A DNA stretch of 36,444 nt from Chrysochromulina tobinii (lineage: Eukaryota; Haptophyta; Prymnesiales; Chrysochromulinaceae), in assembly GCA_001275005.1 (NCBI GenBank), contig JWZX01003333.1:1-36444 (forward strand). The letters are read 5' to 3'. The notes beneath the pieces were generated by a model, which saw nothing but the letters and a program-made list of their open reading frames with translations, ran no database searches and was not told the DNA's origin. A program made the translations under genes and the position numbers. Below are positions 12,592-34,593 of this stretch, in pieces; position 1 is the first letter of the stretch, and each line of letters begins with the position of its first letter.

Positions 12592-15500
12592 ATGGTCCTC
12601 CATTGCATGCATTCGAATTCTTTACGAACCTGCCCGTTGATTTCGAGGAAAGTTGCGTCATCGCTCTCGGCCCAGTGCACAGGCTGCTGCTGCTCGAGTT
12701 GCCTCCCTCCCGTGGGCAAAATGCCTCCAGTGGGCAAATTGCCTCCCGTGGTCGCACACACAGCCCCGTCCGTTGGAGGAGATTGCCCATACATCCTGGT
12801 GACTGGTGCTGGCGAGGCGGCCGTCAACGGATTGTACGCGCTCGCCGCTCTCGCCAACGAACGGCCCACTTGGAAGGCGCTCACAAACGACGACGCTATC
12901 ATCCAATTCAATACGGCCGCCGAGGCGGACGGCTGGTTTGGCGCGGGCACGGGTGCCATCTACGCCATCGTGGACAAAACGCACAAGTACATCGCCAAGG
13001 ATACGGCCAGCACGGGCCTGCGCTCGCCGCCAACCACTGGCTTCGTCGCACGCTCGAAAAAGGTCAAGGAGCCCGCCCCGACGCTCGCGTGTGCCGCGGT
13101 GGCTCCCTCGTGCGCGCGTGCCCGCGCCATCGCATCGGGGCTCCCGTTTGCGTCGGGCGCGCTCTTCACGCGCAGCAGCTCCCTCGTGCCTCGGACAACG
13201 TACACGCACGCGCTCGCCGCCGGACAGGCGACGCTGAGCTGGCAGGACGCAAGCGCGGCGACTCGCGGGGCCACCGGCGGCGGCACGAGCGGCGGCGCCG
13301 CATGGCTGCTGATCGCGCCGGACGCTGTGAGCGGTCAGCCCCTGGCGCTCTTGAGCGCTCCTGATGCACTCTCGCGGGCGCTAGGCCCGCCTGTGAACAA
13401 TTGGATCCCGCGACCGAGCAAGCACAAGCCGAACAAGGGTGAGGCTCCTCCATCTCTGCGCCTTGAGTGCGCGTGCGGCGCGGCGCATTTCGAGTCGGCC
13501 GAGGCGCTCGGGTACCTTCCACGCTCGTCGAGCTGCGCACGCGAGTGTACGCAGGCGCCTGCGAGTAGCGCTTGCCTTGGCTGCCTGTGCGTGGCTTGCG
13601 GTGTGTGTCCGCCGCCGCCGCCGCCGCCGCCTGCGCCGCCCTCGCCGCCGCCGCCGCCACGAGATCCTTCGCCGCCGCCGCCGCCGCCGCAGCCGACGAG
13701 CCAGACGCTGCTCGCGACGGGCTTCGAAGATGGAGGCGGAGGTGTCGAGGTCTCTGACTCGGGCGGCGGCGGTGGCGGCGTGCTCATGCACGAGATGCCC
13801 TCGCGTGCGGCGAAGCGAATGGGAAGCTACGGCTTACGGCTCGAGGTGCGCATGGCCTTTGAGGCCTCCCTAATTGCCACCCTAATTGCCTCCCTAACTG
13901 TGCCACCTCCTTTTTGCTCCCCAATTGCCTCCCTCCTCCCTAATTGCCTCCCTAATTGCCTCCCCCATTGCCTCCCTAATTGCATGCAGGTGCGCAAGGC
14001 CTTTGAGCCGGCGTACAAGGGCAAAGTTCAGCTGGGCTCCTTTTTGGTCGCGGGGGGCTTCACGCTCCTAACGGTCTCGCTTTGGGTTCGCGCCGAGGAC
14101 GGCGCGCAGCTGCCCTTGCCCAAACTAGACGTCCTCGACGCCGATGAGGGCTATGAGTGGCTCGGATCGGCCGAACCCTGCCTCGTGTCGGCGACCGAGT
14201 GGCGGCAGTGCTCGGCGACCGTGGCGCTCGATACGGCGCGTAGGGGTCACGCACTCGAGTGCAATCTGGTCGTGGGCGGTCACGTGGGCGTTCTGTACGT
14301 GGACGACATCCTCGTCGTCCAATCGATCGCATCGCCACCCAGCCCGCCGACCCCGCCGCCGCCCGCCCCGCCCCTCGATCCGATCCTGCGCATCGAGACA
14401 TTCGAGACCTCGAGCGTGCAGCCGTGGCCTGCGCCTGAGGTGGGCTCAGCCGAGGCGGCGCTCTACAGCCGCCTCGCGGCCCCCGTGCACGCGCGCACGA
14501 TCGTCGCTAGTGATGGTAAGGAGGGCAAGATGGTCGCGGAGATCCCGTCGGGCGGCGGGCGGCCGCCCTCCAAACGCGCCGCGCGGATTGACGTCCAGTC
14601 AGTCTACCGGCCCGCCTGGCGCGCGCGACTGGAGCTGGGCAGGTACGTGGTGCAGCTGAGCGAGCTCCGAGTGCGACTGTGGGGGCGTGCCACCAGGCAC
14701 GTCGAGAGGGGCGATGGCAGGCGGTTGGACGGCGACGATGGCAGGCGGTTGGATGGCGACGATGGCAGCGACGATGGCAGGCGGTTGGACGGCGACGATG
14801 GCAGCGACGATGGCAGTGGTGCCGGCGCCGGCGAGAATGTGCGCGTGACGATTGACGTGACCGACGAGTCCGTGGGCGGCGAGTGGGTGGGCTCTGCTCA
14901 GCCGTTGTACTTTGGGCCCGTGTGGAAGGAGCACACGGTGACGGTGGTGCTTGACACAGCGCGCTCGCTCCACGTGCTTTCGCTGGCTCTGATCGTCGGT
15001 GGGACGGCGGCGGAGTATTGGGTGGACGATGTGGCCATCGAGCAGGCCGTGCCGCCCCGTGGGCTGCGCGAGGGGATCCTGTCCATCGGCTTTGAGGAAG
15101 ATGAACCTCATGACGCCGCGGACGGCGGCCTCGCCATCGTACGCCACCCAGCTGCCCCCGCAGGCGCCCTCCCTTATAGCCGTTCGACTCTCGCGGCTCC
15201 GCTGAGCACCGCCGACCGGATGATCGTACCGCCCGCTGTCGGGCCTACAGGAAGCCGTTGCGCCAAGCTCGTGGTCGAGCAACCGGCCGAGCCGCCCTGG
15301 TACCCGAAGCTCGGATGGCGCCTGATTGCATGCTGATTGCATGCTGATTGCACGCTGATTGCATGCTGATTGCATGCTGATTGCATGCTGATTGCATGCT
15401 GATTGCCTCCCTCATCAGGTACCTGAAGCTCCGGCTCGGAACCTTCCGTGCCGCGAACCAGATGCTTCACGTGGCGCTCACTGCACGGCTGGAGGCCGAC

Positions 15501-18500
15501 GGCGGTGTCGGCGAGTCGCCGCAGCCAAGCCGTCACCACCATCACGGCCGGCGCAGCGCAGAAGTCGCCGCCTCCGCGTCGAATGACGTGCCCCCGTTTT
15601 TCACCGTCGACATCGTCGATGGCGCAGATTGGATCGGGAGTTGGGTGCACTTGAACCTGAGCTCGAGCGCCTGGCAGCGGTACGAGGTCTCGGTGCCACT
15701 GCCCTTTTCGCGCCGCGGCCACTTTCTCGACGTCGCTGTGGTCGTTGGCCATCGGGCGGGCACGTACCTGATCGATGACGTGAATGTCACCCAAACGCTC
15801 GCGCCGCCGCCGCCGCCCGCACCCCCGTCGGTCGCCTGGGGTGCCACTTACGACTTTGAGAGGTTGCCCAGGGTGGAGGGGGGCGCCATGGCCGTGCGTC
15901 TCATCACGTATACGCCCGAGGCGGCTGCGGGCGCGAGTGCGGACCTCTGTGCCTCGTCCGCCGGGCGCGCGGGTGGGCACGGCGCCATGATCACCGTCAG
16001 CCGGGCGCCAGCTCAGCCATGGCATACGCGGATCGGTCTCGGGCTCTTTGAAGCACAACGCGCGGCACTGGTCCTCAAATTCTCCGCCAAGCTCGCGTCG
16101 CCCGCCGCGGGCGCTCAGCTCACGCCGCCACCGCCGCCGCCGCCCTTCCCGCCGCAGCCGCCTCCCTCTGGTCTAGCCATGCCATGCACGAATGCACACG
16201 GCCCTACGGATTCCAAGGTCGAGAAATGCATGGGCTGGTGCACCGAAGGGGCCGCCTCCCAGCGTTCACAGCGCTGTGCCTATTGCAAGTGCCGCCAGTG
16301 CCCGGCATGCCTGGCGGCAGCGGCCACGGGTCCCTTTCTAACGGTGAGCGTCACCGACGCCGACAACGCCTCCGAGTGGCTGGGCTATTGGCAGAGACTC
16401 AACCTGAGCTCCGCCGAATGGCGACAGTTTAAGGTGACGGTGCCGCTCTCCGCCGCCAAGCGCGGACACACGCTCGAGACTTCGATCGTTCTCGGGCACG
16501 CGGCCGGCGTGTACCTGATCGATGATGTCTCCATCTACCAGACGGACCCGGTCGCGCTCGCTCTCCAAGTCGGATTCGAAGAGCCCGACGCCGCCGTCGT
16601 CGCTGTGGGCACAGGTGGCAGTGTCGCTGTGCCGGTGGCCGGGGGCGGCCTGATGACGGCCAATCTCGCCTCTGAGGCGGCGGCGCACGGCGGCGGCAAG
16701 GGCGCCGAGGTGGTGATCCGCGAGCTGTTCACACCAGCCTGGCAGGGGCGTCTGGAATTAGGCACGATCGTAGCTACCCTCAATGCGCTCACCATTCGCC
16801 TCTGGGGACGCGCGAGTCGCCCCGCGCCCATCCACGCCAATCTCATCGACAGCGCGGCGGCCTACGAGTGGTTGGCGTTTTGGGAGCCTCTCAATCTGAC
16901 GAACCACTGGGCAGAGCACTCAACTGTCGCGCCGCTCGACCCTACGCGCCGAGGACATCGACTCCAAATGTCCCTCGTGATGGGTGCCATCGCCGCCACG
17001 TACTCACTCGACGACATTTCACTCACGCAGAGCTGTGAAAACTGGCCGACGCCCTGGCTGCCGCCGGCGCCACTCGGCTCACTCTATACGGGCTTCGAGG
17101 ACTGCACTGGTGCTATCCCCCGGATGGACAGCGCCACGTCGAGCGGCGGCGCCCGGTACAGCGCGACGTCGGGCGGCGGCGCCCGAGACAGCGCGACGTC
17201 GGGCGTCGGTAGCAGCGGTGGCAGTCCGATCGCAGCAGAGCTGTACGCGCCCATGGCGGCGCGTACCGGCCAGCTGGGGATGAGGCTCAAGGTGCGGCGC
17301 CACCTGCATATTGATGAGGAGCGACCCAAGCTCATCCTCGGCAGCTTGATCCTGGCGGACGCGTCGCGCGCTTCGGATGCAATCCTTCTGTCGCTCTGGG
17401 CCAAGATGCAGGTGTGCAAGCAGACACCGTGGAACGCCTCTGAGCGCCACTCAGTGTCATTGAGTGCCCTTGGTAGTGTGCCCTTGGTAGTGGGTGCCAC
17501 AGTGGTCCAGTGCCACGGAGAGCCTAGAGTCCCTTGATTGCCGCTTGAGCTCCCTTGATTGCCCATTGATTGCCCATTGATTGCCCATTGATTGCCCATT
17601 GATTGCCCTTGATTGCCCATTGATTGCACTTGATTGCCCCTTGATTGCCCCTTGATTGCCCTTGATTGCCACGGAGAGCCTCCGAGTCCCACACCCCTTG
17701 ATTGCCGCTGATGAGCGCCAAGTGACCCCCGATCGTTCTTCCCACAGCCCGGCGAGACGGCGGAGCACGGCGAGACACCTCCGTCGATCACCTTCGAGCT
17801 ACTCGACGTCAACCAATCGTACACGTGGATTGGGCACTGGCGTGCGTGCAACATGACGCACGGGCGTGCGTGGACCAAATGTGCTGCCGAAGTCCCCATC
17901 ACGCCAGCTCTCGCGCTGCACGTGATTCAAGTGAGCATCCTCTTTGGAGCGGTACGCGCCTCGTATCTCGTCGATGATCTCGCCGTCGAGCTCTGATGAG
18001 CTCTGATGACCTCTGATTGCCTCCCTCATCAGGTACGCGCCTCGTATCTCGTCGATGATCTCGCCGTCGAGCAGCGCTCTCGTTCGAGCAGCGCCGCCGC
18101 GAGCCGCTCGTATGTGCTCCTGTCCGAAGGCTTCGAAACCGCCGCAAGGCCGCCCAAGCCGCTCGCCTACGGTGCGCATCTCGAGGCGCGCATGTGCATG
18201 CATGCATGCATGCATGCATGTGCTCACCACGGCGCCCGGTGTTCCCCACAGGTGCGCATCTCGAGGCGCGCATGTCCGATGGGGGGTCGGCGATAGCCGC
18301 GGGCATGCATGCCGACTTGCATGCCGCCGACGCGGCGCATGCAAGGCATGGGAGCAAGGCGGGCGCGCAGGTGCGCGTGCCGGCGCGCCTCTCCCCCCAC
18401 CAGCAGACCCTGAGCATGCATGTGCTCATCACGGCGCCCGGTGTTCCCCACAGGTGCGCGTGCCGATGCTTCCGCCGGCGGCGGGCGGCGGCGGCGCACG

Positions 18501-20557
18501 CAAGCCGCTGCTCGCGCTGGGCAAGTTTCACGCGGTCGCGGGCACGTTGCGCGTGGCGGTTTGGGCGAGGGCGGGCGCCGTCGCGGGCGCCACCGCCAAG
18601 GATCTCGCGCTCGGCCTCGAGGTGCTTGACGAAACTGACGAATTCCGCTGGCTCGGGAGCGCCACGACGGCGCCTGTGGGCAGCGCGTGGAAGAAGCTTA
18701 GTATGGAAGTGGACGTGGCCGAATCGGTCGATGGACACCTGCTTGACGTGTCCCTCACGTTTGGGGGCGGAGGCAATTACGATCTCGACGACCTCGAGAT
18801 CACGTGCCCGGAGCGCGCGCTGTCCACAATCCTCAACGTGACGTTCGAGACGAGCGACGCAGTGACCCTCGCCCCGCGCGTCGCCGCGGGCGCCCAATAC
18901 GACGCGCTTCGCACGGCGCTCACGCTCGACGCGCCCATCGCCGGCGCCGGGCGCGCGTCGGCCCACGGCGCCGTGCTGGGCGTCTCTCAGCGCTTCGTCA
19001 ACCCGAGCGATGCCAAATTACGCCTCATCAGGGTGAGCGCCGTTCCGGGCATCCTCAACGTCTCCCTGTGGGTGAAGCTGGCGGACGCGTCCTCTGTAGC
19101 CAGGCTCATCAGCAGTGGCGGCAGCGACAGCAGCGAGACTGGCAGCAGCAGCGGCGGTAGCAGCAGCAGCAGCAGCGGCGGTAGCAGCAGCGGCAGCAGC
19201 GGCGGTAGCAGCAGCAGCAGCAGCGGCGGTAGCAGCAGCGGCAGCACGGGCAGCGGCAGCACTGGCGGCAGCAGTGCAGCTTCGAAGAAGAAAAAGAGCT
19301 CGTCATCAAGCTCCCACAGCTCGTCATCATCAGGCTCATTAGCCAGCCACGGGCGCGAGCTGCTGGCAACGGCGAGCGGCGGCGCCAGCGCCGGCAAGGG
19401 CGGCAAGGGCGGCGGGTCGGCGCCCGGGGCGGCGCCGTCCGGTCCATACGTCAAGATCGAGGTCCTCGACGAAACTGCGGACTTCGAGTGGCTCGGCGCG
19501 TGGATGACGTTCGCCATCAGCGCCTCCGAATGGACGCGCATCGAAGCCATCATTCCCATTCACACCTCCCGTGCCGGCCATTCGCTCGACGTGGCGCTGG
19601 CAGTGGGAGCTGCGACTCCGGGGATACTGCTCGACGACATCGTCATCGCCGCCCCTTCGCTCGTGGGCGCCGGCGTACCGGTCAAGGCGCTGAGCGTCGG
19701 CTTCGATGATGTGGCAAGCACGCGACACATTGGCGTCATCTACTCGGGGGGCACCCCTGGCACCCCTACCATCCTCGGAGGCGGCCCCCATGTACGCTTG
19801 CAGCTGAGCTCTGATGACCTTTGATTGCCTACCATCCTCGGAGGCGGCCCCCATGTACGCTTGCAGCTGAGCTCTGATGACCTTTGATTGTCTTATTGAT
19901 GGCCTCTGATGGCCTCTGATCACCTCTGATCGCCCCTTGATTGCCTCTGATTGCCTCTGATTGCCCTCTGATCGCCTCCTTCATCAGGTGCGCGTGCAGC
20001 TGAGTTCCCCACACGCCGCCCGCACCGGGGTCGCCGGCGCGATGTTCAACGTGCTCGAACCGGTCGGCGCGCCCGCGACGGCGCGCCTGGCCATCTGCAC
20101 CGTCGTCAGCGCCATGCCGGGCGCCCTCAAGGTTGCCTTTTGGGCGCGAACGCCCGAACGGCATCCGGCGCCGCGCCTGGCAGTGGACTTTTTGGATGCG
20201 AGTGACGGCTGGCACTACCTCGGGTTAGCCGATGACTTCCGGCTGAGCACCACGTGGCAGCGCTTCGAGGTCTCCATCCACTTGGGCGCGAGTCGGGTGG
20301 GCCATAAGATCGAGGTGGCGTTACAACTTGGCCGAGCAGCAGAGAACCCTAATTGCCCCCTAATTGCCTCCTAATTGCCTCCTAATTGCCTCCTAATTGC
20401 CTCCTAATTGCCTCCTAATTGCCTCCAGGTGGCGTTACAACTTGGCCGAGCAGCAGGTGTCATCCTCCTCGATGATCTCGAGGTCTGGGGGCCTCGCTCG
20501 GCCGACGGGTACCCGCCGCGCGCCATGCCGCCGCTGCTGCCCGAGCCGGAACCCTAA
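12592..20557 (+). CDS. Giant multi-module protein with nine jelly-roll (CBM-like) repeats
   Basis: Spliced by hand: exons 12592-13845, 13990-15299, 15419-17411, 17748-17951, 18033-18171, 18252-18370, 18454-19791, 19988-20314, 20429-20557; 2270 residues with every junction in frame. An N-terminal unit (65-132) has the VTGAGEAAVNGLY signature seen in protist repeat proteins. Then come two Cys-rich cassettes, each next to poly-proline, and nine modules of about 170-220 residues. Each starts with a GFE/FET motif, has W-LG in the middle and ends with DDI/DDV/DDL (e.g. YVDDILVVQ, LIDDVNVTQ, LLDDLEVWG). This pattern resembles CBM4/9-type carbohydrate-binding sandwiches. Ser/Gly-rich and Asp/Gly-rich linkers occur. 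It is probably extracellular or scale/wall-associated, though no clean signal peptide is seen at the chosen ATG, so a 5' exon may be missing. The last insertion (20555-20606) sets the stop. Confidence 0.75.
13846..13989 (+). other. Introner-type intron 1 of the nine-module gene
   Basis: 144 nt, GTGCGC...TGCAG. The body is repeats of CTAATTGCCTCC. The first 18 bases copy the start of the next exon: GAGGTGCGCATGGCCTTTGA at 13843 versus CAGGTGCGCAAGGCCTTTGA at 13987. The length is a multiple of three without a stop, so retention would only add 48 residues. Confidence 0.75.
14706..14819 (+). repeat. In-frame minisatellite coding for DGRRLDGDDG repeats
   Basis: Tandem units built from GGCGATGGCAGGCGGTTGGA and GACGATGGCAGC inside exon 2 of the nine-module gene encode DGRRLDGDDG and SDDG blocks. 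All units keep the frame. It forms an acidic linker inserted in the second module and is probably length-variable. Confidence 0.75.
15300..15418 (+). other. Introner-type intron 2 of the nine-module gene
   Basis: 119 nt, GTACCC...CTCATCAG, interrupting the tryptophan codon TG|G. The body is seven or more tandem copies of CTGATTGCATG, ending in TGATTGCCTCCCTCATCAG. The intron start GTACCCGAAGCTCGGATGG duplicates the following exon start GTACCTGAAGCTCCGGCTCGG with several mismatches, so it is an older copy. Confidence 0.8.
17412..17747 (+). other. Composite introner-type intron 3 of the nine-module gene
   Basis: 336 nt, GTGTGC...TTCCCACAG; splicing gives LWAKMQ-PGETAEHG in frame. The body has about ten copies of CCATTGATTG / CCCTTGATTG. 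A segment with CCACGGAGAGCCT is present twice inside the intron (about 17513 and 17671), which suggests a second, nested duplication event. Confidence 0.7.
17952..18032 (+). other. Introner-type intron 4, flanked by a perfect 41-bp duplication
   Basis: 81 nt, GTACGC...CTCATCAG. The exon segment 17951-17991 is repeated without mismatch at 18032-18072. Only about 40 bp of insert separates the copies, ending TGATTGCCTCCCTCATCAG. The lack of divergence marks this as one of the youngest insertions. Splicing gives FGAVRASYLVDDLAVEQ, the expected end of the sixth module. Confidence 0.88.
18172..18251 (+). other. Introner-type intron 5 (second family)
   Basis: 80 nt, GTGCGC...CCCCACAG. A 25-bp perfect duplication (18171-18195 and 18251-18275) flanks it. 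The body is a run of ATGC repeats, then GTGCTCACCACGGCGCCC, then GGTGTTCCCCACAG. This family is unrelated in sequence to the TGATTGCC family. Confidence 0.82.
18371..18453 (+). other. Introner-type intron 6 (second family)
   Basis: 83 nt. CAGGTGCGCGTGCCG is duplicated at 18368-18382 and 18451-18465. The 3' part, from GCATGCATGTGCTCATCACG to GGTGTTCCCCACAG, matches intron 5 almost base for base, so the two are recent copies of one element within 120 bp. Confidence 0.82.
19115..19335 (+). repeat. AGC/GGC triplet-repeat tract coding for poly-Ser/Gly
   Basis: Tandem AGCAGC...GGCGGT units in exon 7 encode SSGGSSSSSSGG repeats followed by KKKKSSSSSSHSSSSSG. It forms a flexible linker inside the eighth module. 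Frame is kept throughout. Confidence 0.8.
19792..19987 (+). other. Introner-type intron 7 with a nested tandem duplication
   Basis: 196 nt, GTACGC...TTCATCAG. Splicing gives GGPH-VRVQLSSPHAA in frame. A perfect 63-bp tandem repeat (19765-19827 and 19828-19890) spans the exon end and intron start, so a candidate donor GTACGC occurs twice (19792 and 19855). Using the second donor would retain exon copy plus a TGA. The outer copies GTACGCTTGCAGCTGAGCTC and GTGCGCGTGCAGCTGAGTTC have diverged. Confidence 0.75.
20315..20428 (+). other. Introner-type intron 8, flanked by a perfect 30-bp duplication
   Basis: 114 nt, GTGGCG...CTCCAG. Segment 20313-20342 is repeated without mismatch at 20427-20456. 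The insert is seven tandem copies of CTAATTGCCTC. Splicing gives KIEVALQLGRAAGVILLDDLEV in frame. Confidence 0.88.
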
Positions 20558-20606
20558 TTGCCTCCTAATTGCCTCCGAATCGCCTCCTTATTGCCTCTTA
20601 ATTGCT
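20555..20606 (+). mobile_element. 52-bp introner-like insertion without GT-AG splice sites
   Basis: The insert (TAATTGCCTCC repeats) lies between two copies of CGAGCCGGAACCC (20542-20554 and 20607-20619). There is no GT at the start of the duplication, so it cannot be spliced as GT-AG in register. Unspliced, it adds TAA directly after PEPEP; the uninterrupted frame would end PEPEPAASGQL. It looks like the same insertion process landing in a site that does not allow splicing. Confidence 0.7.
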
Positions 20607-20619
20607 CGAGCCGGAACCC

Positions 20620-20907
20620 GCGGCGTCGGGGCAGTTGTGAGAGAGCGGCGCCGCGAACTCGCCGCCTTTCTGACGCATGTGGAACGATGCCTGGATGATT
20701 GCGTTATGCCTGGATGATATCTATGTTTGTTCCTCTAAGACGTCCTAATAGCGCGAGCTCTAGCGGTAGCACTACGAGTACGTTTACGATAAGCCGTCGA
20801 GTCGATGCATGGCGTGCATGGACCATGTGGACCGCATGGTGCCCGTCGGTGCGGGTGTGCATTGCGTTGTGCACATTGACACAAAAAATACACTCTTCGG
20901 GGCGACC
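20620..20907. other. Intergenic region between convergent genes
   Basis: About 290 bp between the end of the nine-module gene and the 3' end of the minus-strand acidic-tailed gene. Holds the likely remnant end codons of the former gene (to TGA at 20638-20640) and ATG-rich simple sequence. No other feature recognised. Confidence 0.3.
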
Positions 20908-22690: not shown

Positions 22691-22792
22691 TCTCACTTCT
22701 GGCGCTCATCAGCCTCGTCACCTTTGAGGCAATCTCCCGATGTGTCTCACTTCTTGGCGGCCATCAGCCTCGTCACCTTTGAGGCAATCTCC
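22691..22792 (-). repeat. 54-bp-period tandem duplication over the 3' end of the lumenal gene
   Basis: Segments 22691-22737 and 22745-22792 are near-identical and include the last codons and stop of the lumenal protein gene. Each copy carries AAG|GTGACG, so the pair offers a GT donor in one copy and an AG acceptor in the other, a 55-nt potential intron (22722-22776) with no inserted filler. Splicing would replace the last residues VTRLMAAKK with VTRLMSARSESSTPP. Confidence 0.65.
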
Positions 22793-23481: not shown

Positions 23482-23832
23482 TTTATTGCCGCACCTCGCC
23501 GAAATCTCGGTGCTGGACTGACGAAATCTGAATGTTTTGGGTTGAGGGAAGAAGCGGAGGACAGTGGCACGAAAGCTTCACGCACTTACATTAAGTGCTT
23601 CGAACAAGTCTCCACCAAAGATGGTCATATGCAGACAGGTCTGACAGGACGCAAATGCTGAGCCTCGAGCGCCGGCTTTCGGCGCAGCTGAGCTTCGACG
23701 ATAGCAAGCAAAAGATCCTCGCGGCGCTGCTCGCCGATAATGAGGACCTGCGCAAGCAGAACATCTAGCTCGAGATGGAGAACCGCCGGCTGCAGCACAC
23801 GCTCGACCTCGAGGAACGCCGCCAACCACGAG
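23482..23832. other. Divergent promoter region with a coiled-coil relic
   Basis: 351 bp between a minus-strand and a plus-strand start; should hold both promoters. Its right part contains the broken coiled-coil frame described separately. No TATA box was recognised. Confidence 0.35.
23655..23832 (+). pseudogene. Coiled-coil relic or broken 5' exon before the GTPase gene
   Basis: From ATG 23655 the frame reads MLSLERRLSAQLSF..., leucine-heptad rich, is stopped by TAG at 23766-23768, and continues LEMENRRLQHTLDLEERRQ before losing sense. The coiled coil continues across the stop, so it was one unit. It ends in a different frame from the GTPase, which starts 20-30 bp later. Either the GTPase once had an N-terminal coiled coil that is now lost, or there is an unrecognised splice. 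Confidence 0.5.
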
Positions 23833-26035
23833 ATGGCGTCCGCGAATCTGTTTTCGGACGCGTACGATTGGATCGTGGACATCCAGCTGCTTTCCGACGT
23901 GTCCAAACAGGGCTGGAAGGTCCAGTTCTCGGGCGAATTCCTCGCCGGCCTTGACAAGGCCGAGCGCGCACAGGTGCTCTCGCAAGGCAAGTGGACTGCC
24001 GAGGACGGCGCGCAGAGCACGGATGGCTTCGGGCAGCCGCCGGCGTCCGCGTGGCGCGGTGCCATCGTCGCCGTGCTCGGCCTGTACGACAAGGGCAAGA
24101 CCTTCGTGCTCAACAACATCTCGAACGCGAAGCTGCCCTCGGGCAAGAAGGTGGCGACCAAGGGCCTCTCCTTCAAGCACGTCGACTGATTGCATGCTGA
24201 TTGCATGATGAGTGCCTCCCTCATCAGGTGGCGACCAAGGGCCTCTCCTTCAAGCACGTAGAGGTGTCCGGCGGCACCAAGTTCATCCTGCTCGACTCGG
24301 AGGGCTCGTTCTCACCGGTCAAGGTTTCGAATGAGCTCTCGGTCGTCGAGAAGGAGGCCACAGAGCTCTTCCTACAGGAGCTCATCTTCGAGATGTCGGA
24401 TTACTTCCTGTGCGACGGATTGCGTCTGATGGCGTCTGATGGCGTCTGATGGCGTCTGATTGCGTCTGATTGCGTCTGATTGTGTGTGATTGCCTCTGAT
24501 TACATCTGATTGCCTCTGATTACGACGAGTGCTTCTCCTTGCCGCTGATTGCATCGGATTACCTCTGATTGCCTCTGATTGAGATGGATTGCCACCGATC
24601 GACTGCAGGTGCGTCGTCAACGACTTCACCTCGCTTGACCAGCGCTATCTCGACAAGTTGACACGCAATCTCCAAAACTCCAAAAAGGACTTTCGCGAGG
24701 TGATCGTGGTACACAACTGTAAGGAGGTCATTGACGAGGATACACTCCGATACGTGTGGGAGACGCAGGCGACTGCCATCTATGGCAGCGGCACGCCGCA
24801 GACGACGCTTGTAGCCGCGACCGACCCGGCCACGAACACCCTCGTTGAGAAAGCCGTGGGCTGGTTCAAGACGCCCTTTTCCCGCCACGTGCTCCTCGCG
24901 AACTCAGACTCCGATCTCGGAGAGAATCTCAACCCGTGGGCCTTCTCCTTGCTGCGCTACTGGCTCAAGAGTGAGCTGTTGATGACCTCTGATGACCTCT
25001 GATGGCCTCTGATGGCCTCTGATGGCCTCTGATGACCTCTGATGACCTCTGATGACCTCTGATGACCGCTCGTCTCAAGAGTGAGCTGCTGATGAGCGCT
25101 GATGAGCTCCGATGGTCGTTGATGGCAGTTGATGGCCGCTGATGACCTCCGATGGCCGCTGAGCGCCACCGATCGCCCCATAGGCGTCTTCATCCCCGTC
25201 GCTCGCGATTTCTCGGTCGTCGACGCGGTGGTGCACTATTCGAATCAGAAGCTCGCCACGCACTTCAAGACGCACCCGCAGCTGGCGCTCACGCACACAG
25301 AAGAGGCAGGTACAGAAGGGCGCGTCTGGTACATCCGCTCGCACTCGGAGGCTCCGGAGCGATTGCGGCTTCATCAGCTGTCCGTCGATGCTTCCGGCAT
25401 CATGCTGGCGCGTCCGGACTCGTACCTGCCGCCTGTCGACATCGTGCGAGAGCCGGACGCGTACAACATCTACATGGACCTGCCCGGCATGACGCGTGAC
25501 CAGGTGAAGCTCTCCCGCCAAAACGTGGTGACCATCGTCAAGGCCGTCGAGCTGCATGCAGGTGCTCACCGCGGCGCCCGCCCCTCTTCCCCACAGGTGA
25601 AGCTCTCCCGCCAAAACGTGGTGACCATCGTCAAGGGTACCCGGGAAAGTGGCCTGTCAGACCGTGAGATCGCAACCTCGGTCACGCGCCAGGAGCGCAA
25701 GGCAGGAGAGTTCACGATGACCTTCCGGATCCCCGAGGAGTATCAGGTGAGATTGCCTCTGATTGCCTCTGATTGCCACTGATGGTCTCTGATTGCCTCT
25801 GATTGTCTCTGATTGCCACTGACCTTTCGGATCCCCGAGGAGTACCAGGTGAGATTGCCTCTGATTGTCTCAGATTGCCTCTGATGGTCTCTGATTGCCA
25901 CTGACCTTTCGGATCCCCGAGGAGCAACAGAGACGATGGGAGTCGGCCGACATGGAGAATGGCGTGCTGCGAATCAGATACCTCAAGGACGAGGAGGAGG
26001 AGGAGGGCAAGGGCGAAGTTAATCCTATTGCATAG
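23833..26035 (+). CDS. P-loop GTPase (GBP/dynamin-like) fused to a C-terminal HSP20 domain
   Basis: Exons 23833-24150, 24228-24409, 24609-24970, 25184-25503, 25597-25746, 25931-26035; 478 residues, all junctions in frame. G1 is GLYDKGKT (83-90) after a hydrophobic strand, G3 is LLDSEG (DxxG, 129-132), and strand VIVVHN (198-203) sits where a G4 loop would be. CVVNDFTSLDQRYL resembles guanylate-binding-protein/atlastin GTPases. Residues 370-470 are a complete alpha-crystallin/HSP20 domain: PPVDIVREPDAYNIYMDLPGM, RQER..GEFTMTFRIPEE, and the closing NGVLRIRYLK. The tail is acidic. A GTP-driven membrane or assembly motor carrying a small heat-shock chaperone is inferred. I know of no standard family with this order. 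All five introns are introner-type. Confidence 0.8.
24151..24227 (+). other. Introner-type intron 1 of the GTPase-HSP20 gene
   Basis: 77 nt, GTGGCG...CTCATCAG. Segment 24149-24182 is repeated without mismatch at 24226-24259 (34 bp). The insert, about 43 bp, is TGATTGCATG repeats ending AGTGCCTCCCTCATCAG. Confidence 0.88.
24410..24608 (+). other. Introner-type intron 2 of the GTPase-HSP20 gene
   Basis: 199 nt, GTGCGA...GACTGCAG, giving DYFL-CVVNDFT in frame. Body: about 15 units of CTGATTGCGT / CTGATTGCCT. The intron start GTGCGACG resembles the exon start GTGCGTCG, but the duplication is short or decayed. Confidence 0.75.
24971..25183 (+). other. Composite introner-type intron 3 of the GTPase-HSP20 gene
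   Basis: 213 nt, GTGAGC...CCCCATAG, giving YWLKS-VFIPVARDF. Body: TGATGACCTC and TGATGGCCTC units. CTCAAGAGTGAGCTG occurs at the exon end (24964) and again inside the intron (25074), so two insertions were stacked. Confidence 0.75.
25504..25596 (+). other. Introner-type intron 4 with a perfect 43-bp duplication (second family)
   Basis: 93 nt, GTGAAG...CCCCACAG. Segment 25501-25543 is repeated without mismatch at 25594-25636. The unique part has GTGCTCACCGCGGCGCCCG and ends TTCCCCACAG, matching introns 5 and 6 of the nine-module gene. Length is 31 codons with no stop; retention would duplicate part of the HSP20 domain. Confidence 0.88.
25747..25930 (+). other. Double, mirror-image introner at the last intron of the GTPase-HSP20 gene
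   Basis: Three copies of the exon end (CGGATCCCCGAGGAG plus TATCAG, TACCAG or CAACAG) are separated by two inserts that each start GTGAGATTGCC. Here the insert carries the donor, and the duplicated exon end supplies each AG. Acceptors are possible at 25848 and 25930; the full 184-nt removal gives PEEYQ-RRWESADMENGVL. Confidence 0.82.
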
Positions 26036-26659: not shown

Positions 26660-28571
26660 ATGCCTGTCGTGCCGCTGCTTGCGGCTGCCTTCCTCCTTGG
26701 ACATGCCATCTGGCCTGCCGCCGCGAGCTGGACCAGGCACGAGGTGTTCCTCACCTGGGCTCGCCAGCAGGGGCTACGCCTTGGACCCGTTTGCATTGTG
26801 CCCTCGACTCTCGGCGGCTTCGGTGTTTTCGCGGAACGCGACATTGCACTCGGGGAAATGGTGTTTGCCGTGCCGAAACGATTGCACGTGGGCTTGAAGG
26901 CAGCATTAGCTGACCCAAGCTGAGGCGCAGAGTTTGAATCTCGCGTCGAGGATGGCAATGCTCTTGGCGTGCTGTGCGCGTTTCTGGCCAAAGAGGCCTT
27001 GTGCAGCGACGGAGCCTTCAAACCGTACATCGACACCCTGGACTTGACCGTCGCAAATCCCGACTATGTGCAGTTCTGGACCGAGGAGGAGGTGGATCTG
27101 CTCTCCGGCACCGCCGCGTACCAGATCGCTTTGGACGTGCGGGCCGAGGCCGAGGACGTCGTCAGGTTTGCGCTCAGTCTGGATTCCCTCCGGAGGTGTG
27201 TGCATCAGGACCTATCGGCGCGAGGTGTACCGATGGACGCGGCGGTAGTCGAGGAGAGGATCGCGACGTGCGTCCGCCGCGCACACGCCGCGGTGCTCAG
27301 CCGCTCGTTTGACGACCTGAGCGACTTTGGCGCGCGGGAGATGATCCCTCTCCTCGACGTGCTGCAGCACGGCAAGCCGCCGTCCGTTCAACATCGAACG
27401 AAGGGGTCCGTGGACTTTGAACAGCCCGTGGATTGGACGGAGTGGGCTGATGAGGATGGAAGAGATGAGTGGGAGGAGGCGGCTCTCTCAGAGCCCTGTC
27501 TCGTCGCTCGCACGCGGCGATCTGTAGCCGCAGGTGAGCTCATCTTTTTTGGCGACCACCCTGAGTGCCTCCCTGAAGACCTCTCTGAGTGCATGCTGAT
27601 TGCCTCCCTCATCAGGCGAGGAACTACTCAACTTTTATGGAGACCACCCACATTTTGTGTTTGCGATGCACTACGGATTTGTGCCAAAGGTCGGTGTGCC
27701 TGCAGGCGTGCCTGCAGGCGTGCCTGCAGGCGTGCACCAAATGGCGACGTGCGTCCTGAACCTCGAGGGCGTCGCGGCGAAGATGGGCAGGACGATGGGC
27801 CCCGCCATCGCCTTGGCCGCGCAGTCGCGTGCGCTCGAGCTTTCGGACGACTGGACGCCTGACGACTTCGATGCGCACGACGACGATGCCTACCAGGGAG
27901 GGAGCGGGACGGAGCCGGCGCCGATCGAAGTGGAAGATGGGCACACATTCTTGGCCCATGTGCTCGCAGATGCTGCGCTGTGGATGAGGCTGCCCGAGCT
28001 CACCTTCTTCGTGAGCGACGAGCTCATTGAGCTCGCAATCTCTGAGGCCGAGATTGGCCGCTTGCCGTCGAACCAGTACGGCGCGGCGGCGCTCGTGGTC
28101 TGTGCGCGGCTGTGCGCGCTCGATGGGAGGACCCTCGAGGCCGTCGGCGGCCAGCAGACCGACCCGAACGAACAGCTCGAGGTGTGGGCACGTCCTCTGC
28201 CTCGTGTGCGCATGCAAGTGCTCACGACGGCGCCCACCTCCCCACAGGCCATGTTTCGTCAACTCCTCGACTCGGAAGATGGGCGGCTCTCGGCCGAGAA
28301 CGACTGGTTAGCGGCCTCGTTGCTCAGGGAAGCCGCGAGGGAGCGGCTGGCCGTGTGCCACGAGCCGCATGGGTGGCTATCCCAGGCGATGATGACGGCG
28401 AGGGAGGCTGGCGGAGCACCAGCACCACGGGAGGCGTGCGTTCGGCTGGCACGCGAGGTGCGCGAGGCGGAAGTGCTCGTCCTCGAACGGCTAGCGCATG
28501 GAGATGTCGCCGAGAGGATGTTCACCACACCCGAGATGCGACTGAATCGTGCAGCACAAACGCAAACGTAA
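26660..28571 (+). CDS. SET-domain (Rubisco LSMT/SETD3-like) lysine methyltransferase with in-frame TGA
   Basis: Exons 26660-27533, 27616-28181, 28248-28571, about 587 codons. The N-terminus is a signal-like peptide (MPVVPLLAAAFLLGHAIWPAAAS). SET features: GGFGVFAERDIALGEMVFAVPKRL, then a long helical insert, then MIPLLDVLQHGK (the NH-box region) and GEELLNFYGDHPHFVFAMHYGFVP closing the active site. A C-terminal helical region fits the LSMT substrate-binding domain. A TGA at 26921-26923 interrupts ADPS-GAEFESRV inside a region that otherwise reads without a break in the same frame. No short intron removes it in frame. It may be a nonsense mutation, an assembly error or recoding. If read through, the product would methylate lysine or histidine in a secretory-route or plastid target. 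Confidence 0.72.
27534..27615 (+). other. Introner-type intron 1 of the SET gene
   Basis: 82 nt, GTGAGC...CTCATCAG, ending TGATTGCCTCCCTCATCAG. The intron start still encodes GELIFFGDHPE, a diverged copy of the exon's GEELLNFYGDHPH, so the duplication of about 36 bp can be seen at the protein level. This is an old example. Confidence 0.8.
27700..27737 (+). repeat. 12-bp tandem repeat in the SET gene
   Basis: GTGCCTGCAGGC repeated three times encodes GVPAGVPAGVPAGV in an inserted loop after the SET core. Frame is preserved. Confidence 0.75.
28182..28247 (+). other. Introner-type intron 2 of the SET gene (second family)
   Basis: 66 nt, GTGTGG...CCCCACAG, with GCATGCAAGTGCTCACGACG and GCGCCCACCTCCCCACAG, the second-family signature. 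Removal joins NEQLE-AMFRQLL. Length is a multiple of three without a stop, so retention would add 22 residues. Flanking duplication has decayed. Confidence 0.7.
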
Positions 28572-28895
28572 CTGAGCTGTTCGTGGCGACCTTCCAAGAA
28601 AAGTAATATTGTTTACTAATTTTCGCGCACTGTTGCTAGTTTGAGAAAGGGTCAGTTGAATCGACACACAAGGCGAGTTTGAGAAAGGGTCAGTTGAATC
28701 GACACACAAGGTACCGACCAGCCACTACCACGCGAAACACTGCCACGCAGTGGTCGCGTCGCTCGGTGGACTAACACACCGGCGAGGATTTTTAAGGATC
28801 CGGCCCCCACCCCCGTCCCGGCCACGCGGCGAGTTTGTGCAGCTTCACAGATTGCTTCACAGCCAAATTGGTTTCTTCGGAGTCGGGGAAAATCG
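28572..28895. other. Intergenic region between SET and FkbM-type genes
   Basis: 324 bp containing the 38-bp tandem repeat listed separately. The rest should hold the SET 3' end and the promoter of the following plus-strand gene; nothing else recognised. Confidence 0.35.
28638..28711. repeat. 38-bp tandem duplication
   Basis: AGTTTGAGAAAGGGTCAGTT continuing to CGACACACAAGG occurs at 28638-28673 and 28676-28711 without mismatch, period 38. It lies between genes. The copies end AAGG and AAGGT, again near an AGGT context. Confidence 0.8.
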
Positions 28896-30074: not shown

Positions 30075-30257
30075 GAGGAGGACACCAGTGACAGGTCAAG
30101 GCAGCGAGCGGGGGAAAGACGCATACCGGTACCGAATGATATGGAGAGATTCGATGGAGAGATTTTCGGCTAAGAGCTCGAGTTACCCTTCGACGCTGGT
30201 TCCCTTCATTGTTACTTTTCAGACACTTTGGCGCAGCGCGCACCGCTGACCGCCTCT

Positions 30258-31622
30258 CTACAAACTCCGTTGCGTGCACGCGCCCCTCATGAGCTTCCGA
30301 CGCAGGTCATCGGGTGGTAAGGGCTCCTCGTTGCGGTGGGGACGTTTCTTAGCGGCCCTCGCGGCCACTCCCAGCCGCGGCTCGCGCACGTCGCCCACAT
30401 CGGCCTCGTCCGCACATGCCGCCGCGCATGCCGCTGCACCGGTCGCACCGGGATCGCCTGTCGTAGGCAGACGCATTCCAAGTTTGGTCATCAGAGTGCG
30501 CGTGCGCTCGGACGCGATCTCGTGAGGCTCCAGATTGTGCTCGAGGGCGTCGCGCAGGGCGTCGCCGTCGAGTTCGAGGGTGAGAGGCTCCATGCGGCTC
30601 AGCGCACGAAGGGCAAGAGCGCGAGCGCTCGAGCGGCTCTGCGCATGAAGGCACTGCATTAGATCCGGTACAAAGTACGGCAGCTCGACCGTGGCCTCGA
30701 GCGAGTCCAAGGCGAGCAGAGCGCGCTTGCGCATCGTCTCGTCGTCAGACGACAGTCGCGGCACGAACCAATCGACCGCCCAGGTTCCCGCCGACCACTC
30801 CGGATTCGCTCGCCACGCCGAGCACGCGTCGCCGAGGACGCGGCGGGCACGGGCTCGCCACAGACGGGAGACGGCCTTGAGGTTGCGCAGGGAGCGCGCG
30901 TCGAGGTCAGCCAGGCAGGCGCCCCAGCAGTCGGCGTCGGACCTCACGAGGCCATCGGCAGTGTCCACCTCGACCTCGTCCTCAGCAGTCGGCGGCGTGA
31001 ACAACGGCTCGGCGAGCGCCTGCGCTCGCTCCTGTGGAGTCAAGTCATCTTCGGCCTCTAGGATGATCTGAAGCACTTGGCAGGATTTGCCTCGGAGCAC
31101 TTCGCTGATGGCGATGGTCGCCATGCGCGCGACCGAACGAAACTCCAAGAGCTGGGAGGCACGCAGCACGGCCATCCGACGCGGCAGCGACAGCCTCCGC
31201 AGCTTATCAAGGGCAGAAAGAGAGGCCGTCGTCGGCCTGGAGGTGAAGAAGCGCGACACAAGCGCGTCGGCGACTGCGACGAGATCGACGAGTGTCTGGG
31301 CCGGGGCGGCCACATGCACGCAAGGCGCCGAAGGATACATCGGAGCATCAGAGAGCGATGCCGTGGCGCGCGATAGACGCACGATCTTCCCATCTGATGA
31401 GATTACTTCCACGCTGTCATGCGTGACGGTCAGCGGCGTCGAGTCTGTGTACGTTGACAGCATCCGAAGCGGACCGGCGCGGGTGAGACAAGAGGCCATC
31501 TGGTCGTCCGATCGTAGCAGGAAAGTGGCCGGGCGCTCGCTCTCGGATTGTCGTTTCGCGCCTGACGAGCAAACCTCTCGTCTTCCCACTGCCCGCGGAA
31601 GCAGAAGTGCTCTCACAGCCAT
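30258..31622 (-). CDS. SKP1-like domain fused to an F-box and HEAT-like repeats
   Basis: 454 residues from ATG 31622, intronless. Residues about 64-125 read as a SKP1 POZ fold (VTHDSVEVISSDGKIVRLSR... then TLVDLVAVADAL). Residues about 150-208 resemble the SKP1 dimerisation/C-terminal helices (MAVLRASQLL, IAISEVLRGKSCQVLQIILEAEDDLTPQERAQALAEPLF; compare the 'GK..EEIR..F.I..D.TPEEE' pattern). Residues 230-270 resemble an F-box (DCWGACLADLDARSLRNLKAVSRLWRARARRV), followed by HEAT/ARM-like helices (285-380) and a basic tail. SKP1 normally binds F-box proteins in trans within SCF ubiquitin ligases, so having both in one chain is unusual. The SKP1 match is weaker than the fold logic suggests and needs a profile search. 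Confidence 0.65.
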   Translation of the reverse strand: MAVRALLLPRAVGRREVCSSGAKRQSESERPATFLLRSDDQMASCLTRAGPLRMLSTYTDSTPLTVTHDSVEVISSDGKIVRLSRATASLSDAPMYPSAPCVHVAAPAQTLVDLVAVADALVSRFFTSRPTTASLSALDKLRRLSLPRRMAVLRASQLLEFRSVARMATIAISEVLRGKSCQVLQIILEAEDDLTPQERAQALAEPLFTPPTAEDEVEVDTADGLVRSDADCWGACLADLDARSLRNLKAVSRLWRARARRVLGDACSAWRANPEWSAGTWAVDWFVPRLSSDDETMRKRALLALDSLEATVELPYFVPDLMQCLHAQSRSSARALALRALSRMEPLTLELDGDALRDALEHNLEPHEIASERTRTLMTKLGMRLPTTGDPGATGAAACAAACADEADVGDVREPRLGVAARAAKKRPHRNEEPLPPDDLRRKLMRGACTQRSL

Positions 31623-31822
31623 GGTAAGTGTCTTGCGGGACGCACTTCTGTTAGCTAGGTGGTTTCAAATAATATTGATGTGTAGACACTTAGGCCACGG
31701 TTGTTTAGGGGCCAGGTTTCGCGCAATGTCTGCAACGGTATTCCGAAACTGTTCCGAAACGTACTCATCCGTCACGCTCTAGAGTTCCACACTTCGTGTC
31801 CATTTATAATCAGAAACGAGTT
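31623..31822. other. Promoter region of the SKP1-F-box gene
   Basis: 200 bp upstream of the ATG at 31622 on the minus strand; also the 3' flank of the SURNod19-like gene. No specific site recognised. Confidence 0.3.
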
Positions 31823-34593
31823 CTAGTCCTCCTCAAGGTAGTAGACCTGCAGCCAGGCCATTTCGCCGTGATGGCCGTAGGTGTTGTTGGTGGTCGCCTC
31901 CGCGTACAGGTTGACGCCGCTGATGAGCGGTGGCGGCTCGAGACCGTGCTCACTCCGCCCCCAGACGCACGGGGGCTGGGCAATGTAGCCGGGCTCATCA
32001 TAGACCGTCCCCGCGAGGCGAGGGTCGCCCCGTCCGCCGTAGATGGGGCGCTCCTCGCACAGGAGCGTCTTGTTCTGGCAGCTCGTGTGCACGGCTGGGT
32101 CGCACGTGTAGAGCGAGATCGCGAGACATGTGGGCGCATGGCAGTGGAAGTTGGCCTTGACAAGCCGTTGGTGGGGCGACGTGGCCGACGGCTTCGGTTG
32201 GAAGATGCCCAGGCTGGTGATCGTGTGGTTGCACTGGGCTGTTGGCGTGCCAGGTGCGCACTGCGCGACGTCGTACTCGACCGGCGATCCGAGTCCCCAT
32301 GTATTCCGGTACCTGATCAGGGAGGCAATCAGGTGCCATCAGGTGGCACTCAGGTGCCATCAACGAGGCCGAGCCCTGATTGCGGGAGCCATCAGCAAGG
32401 CCGGGCCCTGATTGCGGGAGCCATCAGCAAGGCCGAGCCCTGACTGCGGGAGCTTACACGTTGGTGTGGAAGCTCGGGTCGTACGGCTGCACCCAGTAGC
32501 GGAACTTGAGCTGGTACTCGAGAGGCTGGTCAGCCCACGGCGTGGGTTGGTCCGCGTCGAGGAGGACCCACTCATGATGGCAGGCAATCTGGCCGCCAGC
32601 GTATGTGCGCAGATCGCACGCGGGGTTTTTCTCGGCGAGGGTATCCATCCGGGGCGGCGGCGCGCAGGTGTTGTCGAACCCGACCTTGCCTTTGCTACTA
32701 TTGGTCACGGGGTCAATGTACTCGAGCGTGCCCTTGGCAAAGCCAAAGGCGGGCTCGGGCGCGGGGCAGATGCACATTGGGGCCTCGAGTTGGAGCAGCG
32801 CAAGGGTCGTGGTGGTCTTCTGACTATGGTGGTCGAGCCCAAACGTCGGGCCACTCCCGATCGCGCTGATGATGCTCAGCAGGGACGCGTCGCCCTGAGC
32901 GTCGTCCTCCAAGCGGAACGAAAAGTGCTGTGGCGTCGTGCCGTTGAGTGGACGCTCGAGGACGAGGGTTCGCTTCCCATCGAGCACAGCGCTCGAGAGC
33001 ACCTTGATCGAGGGTTCAAGGAGCTCTCCGGCGGCGTGGTTGTACAGCCGACGCTCACTCACCTCCCCATCGCCCCCGCCCACGAGGATCGCGTACGGGC
33101 CGGTCGGGTCTCCAGGGGCACCACCGCCCATCGTAGTCGCATTGAACCCAACGCCAAACCACTCGTCGGCCGGGCCGGTGATGGTCAGGGTAGCTGTCTG
33201 GTTGGGCTCCGACAGGCTCACTTCAAGGTGCCAGCCGGAGAGGGCGCTGACGACGCCGGCCGCGCGCCGCTTGCCGGCATGGTCCTTGGCTTTGCCGCCA
33301 CATGGACTCGTAGGAGACTCGGGCGGTGCGGAATTCCATGTGGCAGCGCACGACACTGCGCCCGTGGCAGCGCCCGTGGCAGCGCCCGAGGCAGCGCTTG
33401 TGGCAGCGCTCGGCGTCAGCGTCAGGGCGCATCCGGCGGGGACCGTCTTCGACTCCACACTGTGAGTCGTCATCGAGGCGCCACACCTGATGAGGGAGGC
33501 AATCGGACTGATGAGGGAGGCAATCGGACTGATGAGGGAGGCAATCAGACTGATGAGGGAGGCAATCGGACGCCATCAGAAGCCATCATTTGACTCCACA
33601 CTGTGAGTCGGCATCGAGGCGCCGCACAGAGAGGAGCCAAGACCCTTGGCCGCCGCGAAGCACTCGGCCGCGCTCTTCGGACTCCCCACAGCCCCCTCGC
33701 AGCCACCGACTTGCCCAGAGCTGAGCGGCACGTAGCCCGCCTGTACATGCTTGATGATCCGAGAGGTCACTGGGCACTCTAGAAGGCCGCTGTACAGGAT
33801 GTCGGAGGGGGACTTGGGGGGCACGTTGCGCGAGCCGGGAGACGAGCGCCGACGCGGGCAGCGGCCCCGGCACGAAGGGAGTGGACCCATCCAGCGACAT
33901 CAGATCTCTGTTCCACGTGTCGATTTGCATCGGCGTGATGTGCCACGTCGTTGGCGACTCGATGACCTGAACATAGCCGGGGGCGTACCCGTGGAAACTC
34001 TTGCGGTACTCCCCGCCATTGGCGCCGCCAAAGTCCTGCGAGGTCGGAAGGGTCTTGCCCCCCACCTTGATGCCGGGCGAAAGCTCGCGTACGACCCATG
34101 CATAGTCCGCGGTAGTAGAGCCGTGCCCATGCCCGTGACGCCGAGGGTCGTCGGGGCCGCCAAGCTTGACCTTCTCCAAGACCGACTTGTTTCCCGTCAT
34201 GGTGCTCTCAAAGTGGTGGTTGTACGCCACGTTGATCGGCACCGAGACCTCCTCGCCAGTGGCCGTGCGCCGCACCTGGTTGGTCTCAAAGCCGACGACC
34301 GCCATGCCCTTTCCGGCGTATTTGGCGACGATGGCTTGCGGGAGCGGCACCGGGTCAAGCAGCGTCCAGAAAACCTCACCGTATGTCGACCGGATCATCG
34401 GCGAGTACAAGTCGAAAAATTCCACGTCTCCTGGGTAGTCCGAGAAGCGCTTGGGGAACTTGGACCCGGACTTGTCCGCACCGGGGGTTGCCGAGAGCGG
34501 ATAGTCGCCATTCATGTTCTCCGCCTTCGGCCCTTGTGCGGTGGTTGCCACGAAGAGGGAGAGGCCCAGCGACAAGCACAAGGTGCGAAGCAT
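31823..34593 (-). CDS. Secreted SURNod19-like protein with a DOMON domain (one frame break)
   Basis: Exons 34593-33628, 33486-32458 and 32312-31823. ATG 34593 starts a signal peptide (MLRTLCLSLGLSLFVATTAQG). Exon 1 has a SURNod19-like region with a His-rich loop (RRHGHGHGS) and ECPVTSRIIKHVQAG. Exon 2 holds a DOMON-like sandwich (WHLEVSLS...DEWFGVGFNATTMGGG...PYAILVGGGDGEVSERRLYNH). Exon 3 ends with NTWGLGSPVEYDVAQC, FHCHAPTC, and GHHGEMAWLQVYYLEED, typical of the SURNod19 C-terminus, where His/Cys may bind metal. Removing one base in the C6 run at 33816-33821 is needed, and exactly that makes exon 1 end in phase with exon 2, so the indel is probably technical. Likely extracellular; stress-related by family name only. 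Confidence 0.68.
32313..32457 (-). other. Introner-type intron 2 of the SURNod19-like gene
   Basis: 145 nt on the minus strand, GTAAGC...CTGATCAG. Three tandem copies of a ~34-bp unit (CCCGCAATCAGGGCTCGGCC...) precede the family end TGATTGCCTCCCTGATCAG. Splicing restores FHTNV-YRNTWGLGS; the unspliced frame stops at TAA within the donor. Confidence 0.78.
33487..33627 (-). other. Introner-type intron 1 of the SURNod19-like gene, with a four-fold acceptor array
   Basis: 141 nt on the minus strand, GTGCGG...CTCATCAG. About 38 bp of the following exon is repeated at the intron start with two to four mismatches. The 3' part is four tandem 21-22-bp units, each CGATTGCCTCCCTCATCAG or close to it, so four candidate acceptors lie in a row. 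Orientation follows the minus-strand gene. Confidence 0.82.

Follow-up and report, generated by a model that had tools for sequence, protein, structure and literature searches.

The window analysed here is one whole contig (C2174, 36,444 nucleotides) of the 53.15-Mb, 2,253-contig genome of Chrysochromulina tobinii, and it carries 17 predicted introns in four genes, many of them flanked by a direct copy of the adjoining exon. Judged by their sequence matches, the inserts that could be traced are copies of introns at other loci, and one rule fits the traced cases: the exon duplication would supply whichever splice site the copied fragment lacks. We propose that new spliceosomal introns arise by DNA-templated copying of intron fragments, either in the repair of staggered breaks or by template switching, a reading to which we give an even chance.

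The predicted introns are distributed over a nine-module gene (8), a GTPase-HSP20 gene (5), a SET gene (2) and a SURNod19-like gene (2). Once its 8 introns are taken out, the nine-module gene shows a frame of 2,270 aa, while removal of 5 introns opens a frame of 478 aa in GTPase-HSP20. The 478-aa model is 72–87% identical to its relatives, with no insertions at the intron sites; among the organism-named proteins listed, it is nearest to one from Prymnesium parvum (72%).

Two builds are observed, the second being the mirror of the first. In architecture I, the exon is followed by a first copy of an exonic stretch (X), by an insert ending in AG and by a second X: the 3′ splice module comes with the insert and the donor with X. 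In architecture II, the first X stays in the exon, a GT lies at or near the start of the insert, and the intron ends with the second X, which gives the acceptor AG; examples are window intron 25747 and, by reading, loci L010, L012, L014, L050, L075, L081 and L082. The splice sites at these introns are GT/GC-AG. The 3′ module is constant in architecture I, while the 5′ ends of the inserts vary and sometimes consist of another locus's exon repeat; in architecture I it is the 5′ end that is truncated, whereas architecture II inserts lose their 3′ end (C239/C1604). Constant element ends were not encountered, the 5′ ends being variable, although no formal search for terminal inverted repeats was made. 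A generalization that AG always precedes X was rejected, since 28 of 47 non-nested rows had AG there, and some of these rows repeat one intron.

Exon copies were scored by comparing the intron start with the downstream exon (architecture I) and the intron end with the upstream exon (architecture II), each comparison being repeated against the other 16 introns as mismatched controls. A clear copy, above every mismatched control, was found for 11 of the 17 introns: ten of architecture I (13846, 15300, 17952, 18172, 19792, 20315, 24151, 25504, 27534 and 33627) and one of architecture II (25747). Two others are marginally above control (18371, 12 versus 11; 24410, 10 versus 7), about the chance yield of 34 comparisons, and four (17412, 24971, 28182 and 32457) show no copy above control. 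With shared flanking bases included, the longest exact repeats measure 43 bp (25501/25594), 41 bp (17951/18032), 34 bp (24149/24226) and 30 bp (20313/20427). A first-pass annotation of this contig had described introns beside long exon duplications in these four genes, and as an observation this is confirmed: 17 introns could be modelled, open frames are restored and 11 introns have a clear copy. The self-alignment of intron start with next exon that it suggested places ten introns clearly above mismatched controls, and its duplication lengths of 30–43 bp agree with the exact repeats. The single build it described, our architecture I, is one of two, 25747-25930 being the mirror, and its statement that a copy lies beside most introns holds for the 11 clear cases but not for 28182-28247, a whole-intron copy from another contig without duplication. 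The individual features are as follows.

13846-13989, plus strand: nine-module intron 1; architecture I, X of 18 bp with 1 mismatch (13846-13863 and 13990-14007).
15300-15418, plus strand: nine-module intron 2; tail CTCATCAG, X of 13 bp with 1 mismatch.
17412-17747, plus strand: nine-module intron 3; exon copy not detected.
17952-18032, plus strand: nine-module intron 4; X of 40 bp with 0 mismatches (17952-17991 and 18033-18072), 41-nt insert with end CTCATCAG.
18172-18251, plus strand: nine-module intron 5; family B insert, X of 24 bp with 0 mismatches.
18371-18453, plus strand: nine-module intron 6; family B insert, X of 12 bp, marginal against control.
19792-19987, plus strand: nine-module intron 7; X of 17 bp with 2 mismatches, holds an exact 63-bp tandem repeat.
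20315-20428, plus strand: nine-module intron 8; X of 28 bp with 0 mismatches, insert shares GAACCCTAATTGCC with the 20555 insertion.
20555-20606, plus strand: insertion in the nine-module gene, flanked by 13-bp copies (20542-20554 and 20607-20619).
24151-24227, plus strand: GTPase-HSP20 intron 1; X of 32 bp from GT with 0 mismatches (24151-24182 and 24228-24259).
24410-24608, plus strand: GTPase-HSP20 intron 2; marginal copy score, 3′ part found again at this site in paralogue C201.
24971-25183, plus strand: GTPase-HSP20 intron 3; outer borders without exon copy, internal 15-bp repeat of its own start region.
25504-25596, plus strand: GTPase-HSP20 intron 4; X of 40 bp with 0 mismatches, 53-nt insert that is a 5′-truncated copy of the C1617 intron.
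25747-25930, plus strand: GTPase-HSP20 intron 5; architecture II, exon copy at the intron 3′ end gives AG, two tandem rounds.
27534-27615, plus strand: SET intron 1; diverged copy of the downstream exon.
28182-28247, plus strand: SET intron 2; near-identical copy of the whole C1145 intron, without duplication.
32313-32457, minus strand: SURNod19-like predicted intron; exon copy not detected, borders less certain.
33487-33627, minus strand: SURNod19-like predicted intron; X of 36 bp with 2 mismatches.

Two families of inserts recur across the genome. Family A ends in CTGATTGCCTCCCTCATCAG, usually preceded by units of 10–12 bp, and its 19-nt tail has 2,286 copies in the 53 Mb at up to 1 mismatch, against 0 for a reversed-pattern control; 590 of 879 exact tails are followed by GT. 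Family B has the core GTGCTCACCACGGCGCCC, often with a pyrimidine run to CCCCACAG, and counts 1,616 copies at the same threshold (control, 18); of 20 family-B loci fetched, several have other ends or lack a clear copy. Since CTGAT and CTAAT units occur in them, which we take to resemble branch points, each tail looks like a minimal 3′ splice module. The donors after family-A tails favour GTGCGC or GTACGC (12 of 38 GT starts) over the usual GTAAGT-like consensus. Within the window, no family A or B match was reported outside about 15.3–33.6 kb, B being reported only where a copy was found. In bacterial and archaeal contigs, family A gave 3 matches, near the chance estimate of about 2, and in viral contigs 0. 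Family B has one viral-contig match (L077:4200-4554), an intron tail with repeated flanks at the contig end; L077 is probably a chimeric assembly from a sample with a related alga, its other frames looking phage-like by eye.

The exon duplication accompanies these tails well beyond the window. A copy score of at least 14 was reached by 23 of 55 family-A tails, compared with 0 of 1,306 mismatched pairs. The 55 remained from 60 found after 5 with another tail within 45 nt had been dropped, sites near sequence ends being uncounted; they come from 20 arbitrary 10-kb stretches, the window, six similarity-chosen loci and 20 short tail-chosen loci, and were not sampled at random. Among 53 rows, 32 clean events were hand-picked under stated rules, repeats below about 12 bp being undetectable; in these, X measures 12–50 bp (median 22.5), the insert has a median of 54.5 nt, and their sum a median of 80 (quartiles 74.5 and 86). 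The lengths of X and insert are inversely related (Spearman −0.57, P 0.0006, n = 32), also among the 17 mismatch-free events (−0.54, P 0.025). Some introns contain tandem arrays of whole X-plus-insert units of about 63–90 bp (L007:2724-3010, L008 and L015:3626-3790), apparently repeated rounds at one site.

Another possible origin of such repeats, simple tandem duplication of exon segments containing AG-GT whose middle was later turned into repeats by slippage, would likewise give direct exon repeats with GT and AG in register, and insert-free tandem duplications do occur in the window (22707/22762 and 28638/28676). However, the middle parts are common to thousands of loci and include other loci's sequence, which slippage cannot supply, and we consider this origin highly improbable. 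The two plain duplications, of 31 and 36 bp and without an intron-like insert, lie at 22707-22792 and 28638-28711.

The origin of the inserts is best seen in the traced cases. Three traced inserts are 5′-truncated and carry 7–27 nt of the source locus's own exon repeat. The insert at C19 holds 27 nt belonging to the repeat of C395, of which there are three copies, two beside intron tails and one read as exon; the insert matches the intronic version. In window intron 25504, the 3′ portion of the C1617 intron is joined by 16 nt from the exon repeat of C1617, again in its intronic version. C239 holds the C2231 intron together with 7 nt from the exon repeat of that locus, the last part being diverged. 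The direction of copying seems firm in these three pairs. It is fairly supported for the fourth: the whole C1145 intron, from GT to AG, recurs at window 28182, the two differences being a substitution and an extra base. At the C1145 locus, the first 30 nt of the shared sequence form an exon repeat; the window has no X. Three further pairs could have been copied in either direction. The architecture-II insert of C239 shares its GT start with C1604; at the 3′ junction, donor and target are alike at 11 of 13 bases, 8 of them in a row, and at two differing places the product has one base from each partner. The C201 copy of part of window intron 2 (24410) agrees at 69 of 70 aligned bases, occupies the same site and is flanked by a 27-bp X. 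Finally, the 20555 insertion and the 20315 intron have the 14 bases of GAACCCTAATTGCC in common, the first six of which are exon at 20555. By reading, no canonical splice sites stand in register in this insertion, and the nine-module frame stops at its TAA, near the C-terminus. Two sets of candidates were set aside: C490/C982/C894 is one gene in paralogous copies rather than parent and daughter, and the L041 matches and most matches of the L010 segment look like tandem body only. The GTPase-HSP20 paralogue C2024:9987-11183 is a single open stretch across query residues 64–468, and C201:2126-3513 is split by several introns, with one tail directly before the residue of window intron 1.

These features suggest the following course of events. 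At a staggered break or a stalled fork, synthesis would copy the target exon, switch to an intron elsewhere, copy a fragment of it and return to the target slightly upstream of the point of departure, so that the stretch in between, X, would be present twice. A fragment with the 3′ half of an intron (branch point, pyrimidines and AG) would take its donor from X, giving architecture I; one with the 5′ half would take its acceptor from X, giving architecture II; a whole intron would not need X. Copies that splice out exactly, or do little harm, would survive, and the protein would be unchanged by the new intron, since the repeat of the invaded exon completes the splice sites. Selection on intron size may also act: X would often be long, as most fragments fall short of the length of a workable intron, which would need about 65–95 nt, and the clean totals are mostly 70–95 nt.

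Copying from introns is supported by the C19 and 25504 daughters, which match the intronic and not the exon version of the source's exon repeat. Fragments cut at either end fit a double-stranded source that offers entry and exit at any point, and DNA copying would explain in addition the seemingly unspliced source at 20555, the copying between paralogues at one site and the mixed junction of C239. An RNA template could have entered if a retroelement enzyme reverse-transcribed excised intron RNA by target priming, with a nicked exon priming on the intron 3′ end, an early stop leaving a 5′ truncation, and offset nicks producing a long, variable target duplication. Long variable duplications are typical of target-primed retroelements, in architecture I the inserts stop precisely at the intron AG and have variable 5′ cut points, and 0 of 4 traced copies begin upstream of the source intron's GT. 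Against it, architecture II copies retain the 5′ end and lose the 3′ end, one likely source seems unspliced (20555), paralogues have an insert in common at the same site, inserts go down to about 30 nt (C395), and the AG end would be fixed by selection for splicing alone; we regard this route as unlikely. Reverse splicing of whole excised introns, followed by reverse transcription and recombination, may explain a minority such as the 28182 copy, which spans GT to AG without duplication. As it predicts whole introns without exon duplication, while 11 of the 17 window introns clearly have one, it is a very improbable general source.

The inserts could also be short non-autonomous DNA transposons, that is, introners proper, mobilized by a putative transposase that makes unusually long duplications. 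There are indeed two families with thousands of similar copies and a constant 3′ module, and a splice site is drawn from the duplication, as in the introners described in PMC9860276. However, there is no constant 5′ end, and inserts begin with other loci's exon sequence. Cut-and-paste enzymes make a fixed short offset, whereas the duplications here vary from 12 to 50 bp, and we consider transposition of this kind distinctly unlikely. A genome-wide and putatively transposase-free making of introns, in which intron fragments serve as repair patches, are completed by duplication of the host exon and carry that exon repeat onward, is a tentative generalization that we hold at somewhat less than even.

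Splicing and gain were approached through environmental proteins, the source contigs of which may be DNA or RNA. Such proteins run straight across five predicted junctions. P0008 (372 residues) is one residue off the GTPase model and crosses four junctions exactly, including the mirror-type 25747-25930; it starts with the first codon after GTPase-HSP20 intron 1. Such a start would be expected if that intron, which contains an in-frame stop, is still present in the source of P0008. P0132 crosses the 17412-17747 junction and ends after entering the X copy of the following intron; P0135 and P0136, by contrast, read into intron 17412 itself. This reflects either partial splicing in RNA or an allelic difference in DNA. 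P0128, which is 57% identical, is uninterrupted at four intron sites (17412, 17952, 18172 and 18371), as would be expected if these introns were gained in the lineage of the window. P0121 and P0134 both read through intron 18371-18453 but differ in frame and in the intron body, which suggests that this intron varies in length and sequence within the population. That mis-joined reads produced the exon repeats is hardly credible: the assembly may derive from any source and type of reads and two genes have in-frame stops, but the repeats lie at GT/AG in register, the frames are restored, and environmental proteins read into the same first X and insert (P0132 ends in VDDLAVEL and P0122 in LQLSSDDL).

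Several points weigh against the proposed copying. Of 28 segments (architecture I or whole introns), only 4 led to a source at another locus, and 8 failed to find even themselves, so that the search was insensitive and the absence of a source says little. The first segment queried gave a source. Among the 13 of a second batch, 2 matched another locus, 1 paralogous copies only, 1 a low-complexity body, 7 only themselves and 2 nothing; among the 14 of a third, 1 gave a new source along with itself, 7 only themselves and 6 nothing, self included. The four architecture-II segments gave C1604 (from C239), C506 beside its own copies (from L012), many body-like matches in one case and self only in another. 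Copying of excised intron RNA would likewise account for the exact AG end in architecture I, although this end is not decisive, because selection for exact splicing demands such ends anyway. Microhomology in architecture I beyond the donor consensus is weak overall, with 10 of 17 bases at C395/C19 (P 0.34) and 13 of 17 at C1617/25504 (P 0.03), and at the C2231/C239 junction none is visible by eye. The inverse relation of X and insert may be partly arithmetic, as intron length is their sum, and partly decay of X. The empty-site comparison is at the level of the protein P0128. Finally, in-frame stops upstream of the modelled parts of GTPase-HSP20 and SET indicate that gene models or assembly are imperfect. 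In GTPase-HSP20, the N-terminal coiled stretch conserved in relatives (23655-23836) carries an in-frame TAG and, further on, what looks by eye like a frame change; in SET, the N-terminal stretch MPVVPLLAAAF... (26661-26925) closes with an in-frame TGA right before the modelled exon. The stops are either assembly errors or marks of damaged genes, and for the SET TGA a missed intron is a third option.

The interpretation given in the first-pass annotation is thus partly supported. The introns are related to one another and across the genome (2,286 family-A tails and 1,616 family-B cores), and its own ground for giving up the idea, a genome with no other introns of this type, did not materialize in the count. 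They also appear to have been gained. The term introner-type elements implies a single mobile element whose ends are fixed, and fits poorly with traced inserts that are fragments of other introns, with variable ends and in some cases exon repeats of other loci. The process, called ongoing, would have been recent or continuing to judge by identical copies, but was not itself observed, and its description as matching no known mechanism was too strong, since filler insertion at staggered breaks has the same anatomy. That neighbouring genes are intronless holds only insofar as family A and B matches are unreported in the rest of the window. Among other scans, Rfam gave four matches in window 13–34 kb at E up to 1, all under the gathering score, so that no model of a ribozyme or catalytic (group I/II) intron matched above it there, and a Pfam scan of ten unspliced frames found 0 families in each.

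How introns originate has long been an open question, and recent cases that can still be read are few. Thousands of related introns here keep the insertion scar, and the traced ones also keep the address of the source locus. If the proposed copying is correct, introns would carry a readable lineage of source genes and would multiply like mobile elements without an element-specific enzyme. The preserved scars would open the template (DNA or RNA), the break geometry and the minimum intron size to statistical testing within one genome. Surveys that discard low-complexity introns and seek short duplications may miss a large class.

As far as the open-licence papers were available, in part, we found no description of 12–50 bp exon duplications around intron-derived inserts, nor a precedent in the parts of PMC3152781, PMC11782384 and PMC12124190. 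The duplications exceed the 3–9 bp of introners (PMC9860276) and the 4–12 bp of Daphnia (PMC4202315), in line with the first-pass annotation, which had called them far longer than those typical of cut-and-paste transposition. Introners resemble our introns in the recurrence of similar introns at many unrelated sites and in duplicated targets able to supply the 5′ or the 3′ splice site, and differ from the 12–50 bp duplications, variable ends, tandem-repeat bodies and exon hitch-hiking seen here. In the Chrysochromulina example of the introner survey, the duplications are of 4 bp and the donor belongs to the element itself; low-complexity families were taken out manually in that survey, which would probably have missed family A (PMC9860276). 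The introner elements of Amoebophrya are likewise repeated introns with direct repeats across exon borders, but those repeats are of 3–5 nt and accompany inverted repeats and non-canonical splice sites (PMC7789003), unlike the GT/GC-AG sites and long repeats here. In intron gain by tandem genomic duplication, the duplicated exon gives the splice sites (PMC3443670), whereas here a foreign insert between the copies brings one of them. Intron transposition and transfer between paralogues use a pre-existing intron as source (PMC3443670, PMC3296678); the 28182 copy and the C201 case resemble them, while most copies here are partial and flanked by exon duplication.

The neointrons of Daphnia, with 33 repeats of 4–12 bp, are attributed to the repair of staggered double-strand breaks (PMC4202315); filler DNA between direct repeats is known as a mark of end joining (PMC3296678). 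As in Daphnia, the exon end is repeated at the far side of the intron (clearly so in 11 of 17 window introns, and in 23 of 55 tails versus 0 of 1,306 pairs), and rounds are repeated at one site. Unlike in Daphnia, the repeats have a median of 22.5 bp, those under about 12 bp being undetectable here, the traced filler is intron sequence from other loci, and the copies number in the thousands. We therefore file this system as a variant of intron gain by repair, a Daphnia-like process with another repeat length that is introner-like without constant ends or short duplications; what is surprising is its scale, the length of the duplications and the inserts that carry the exons of other loci.
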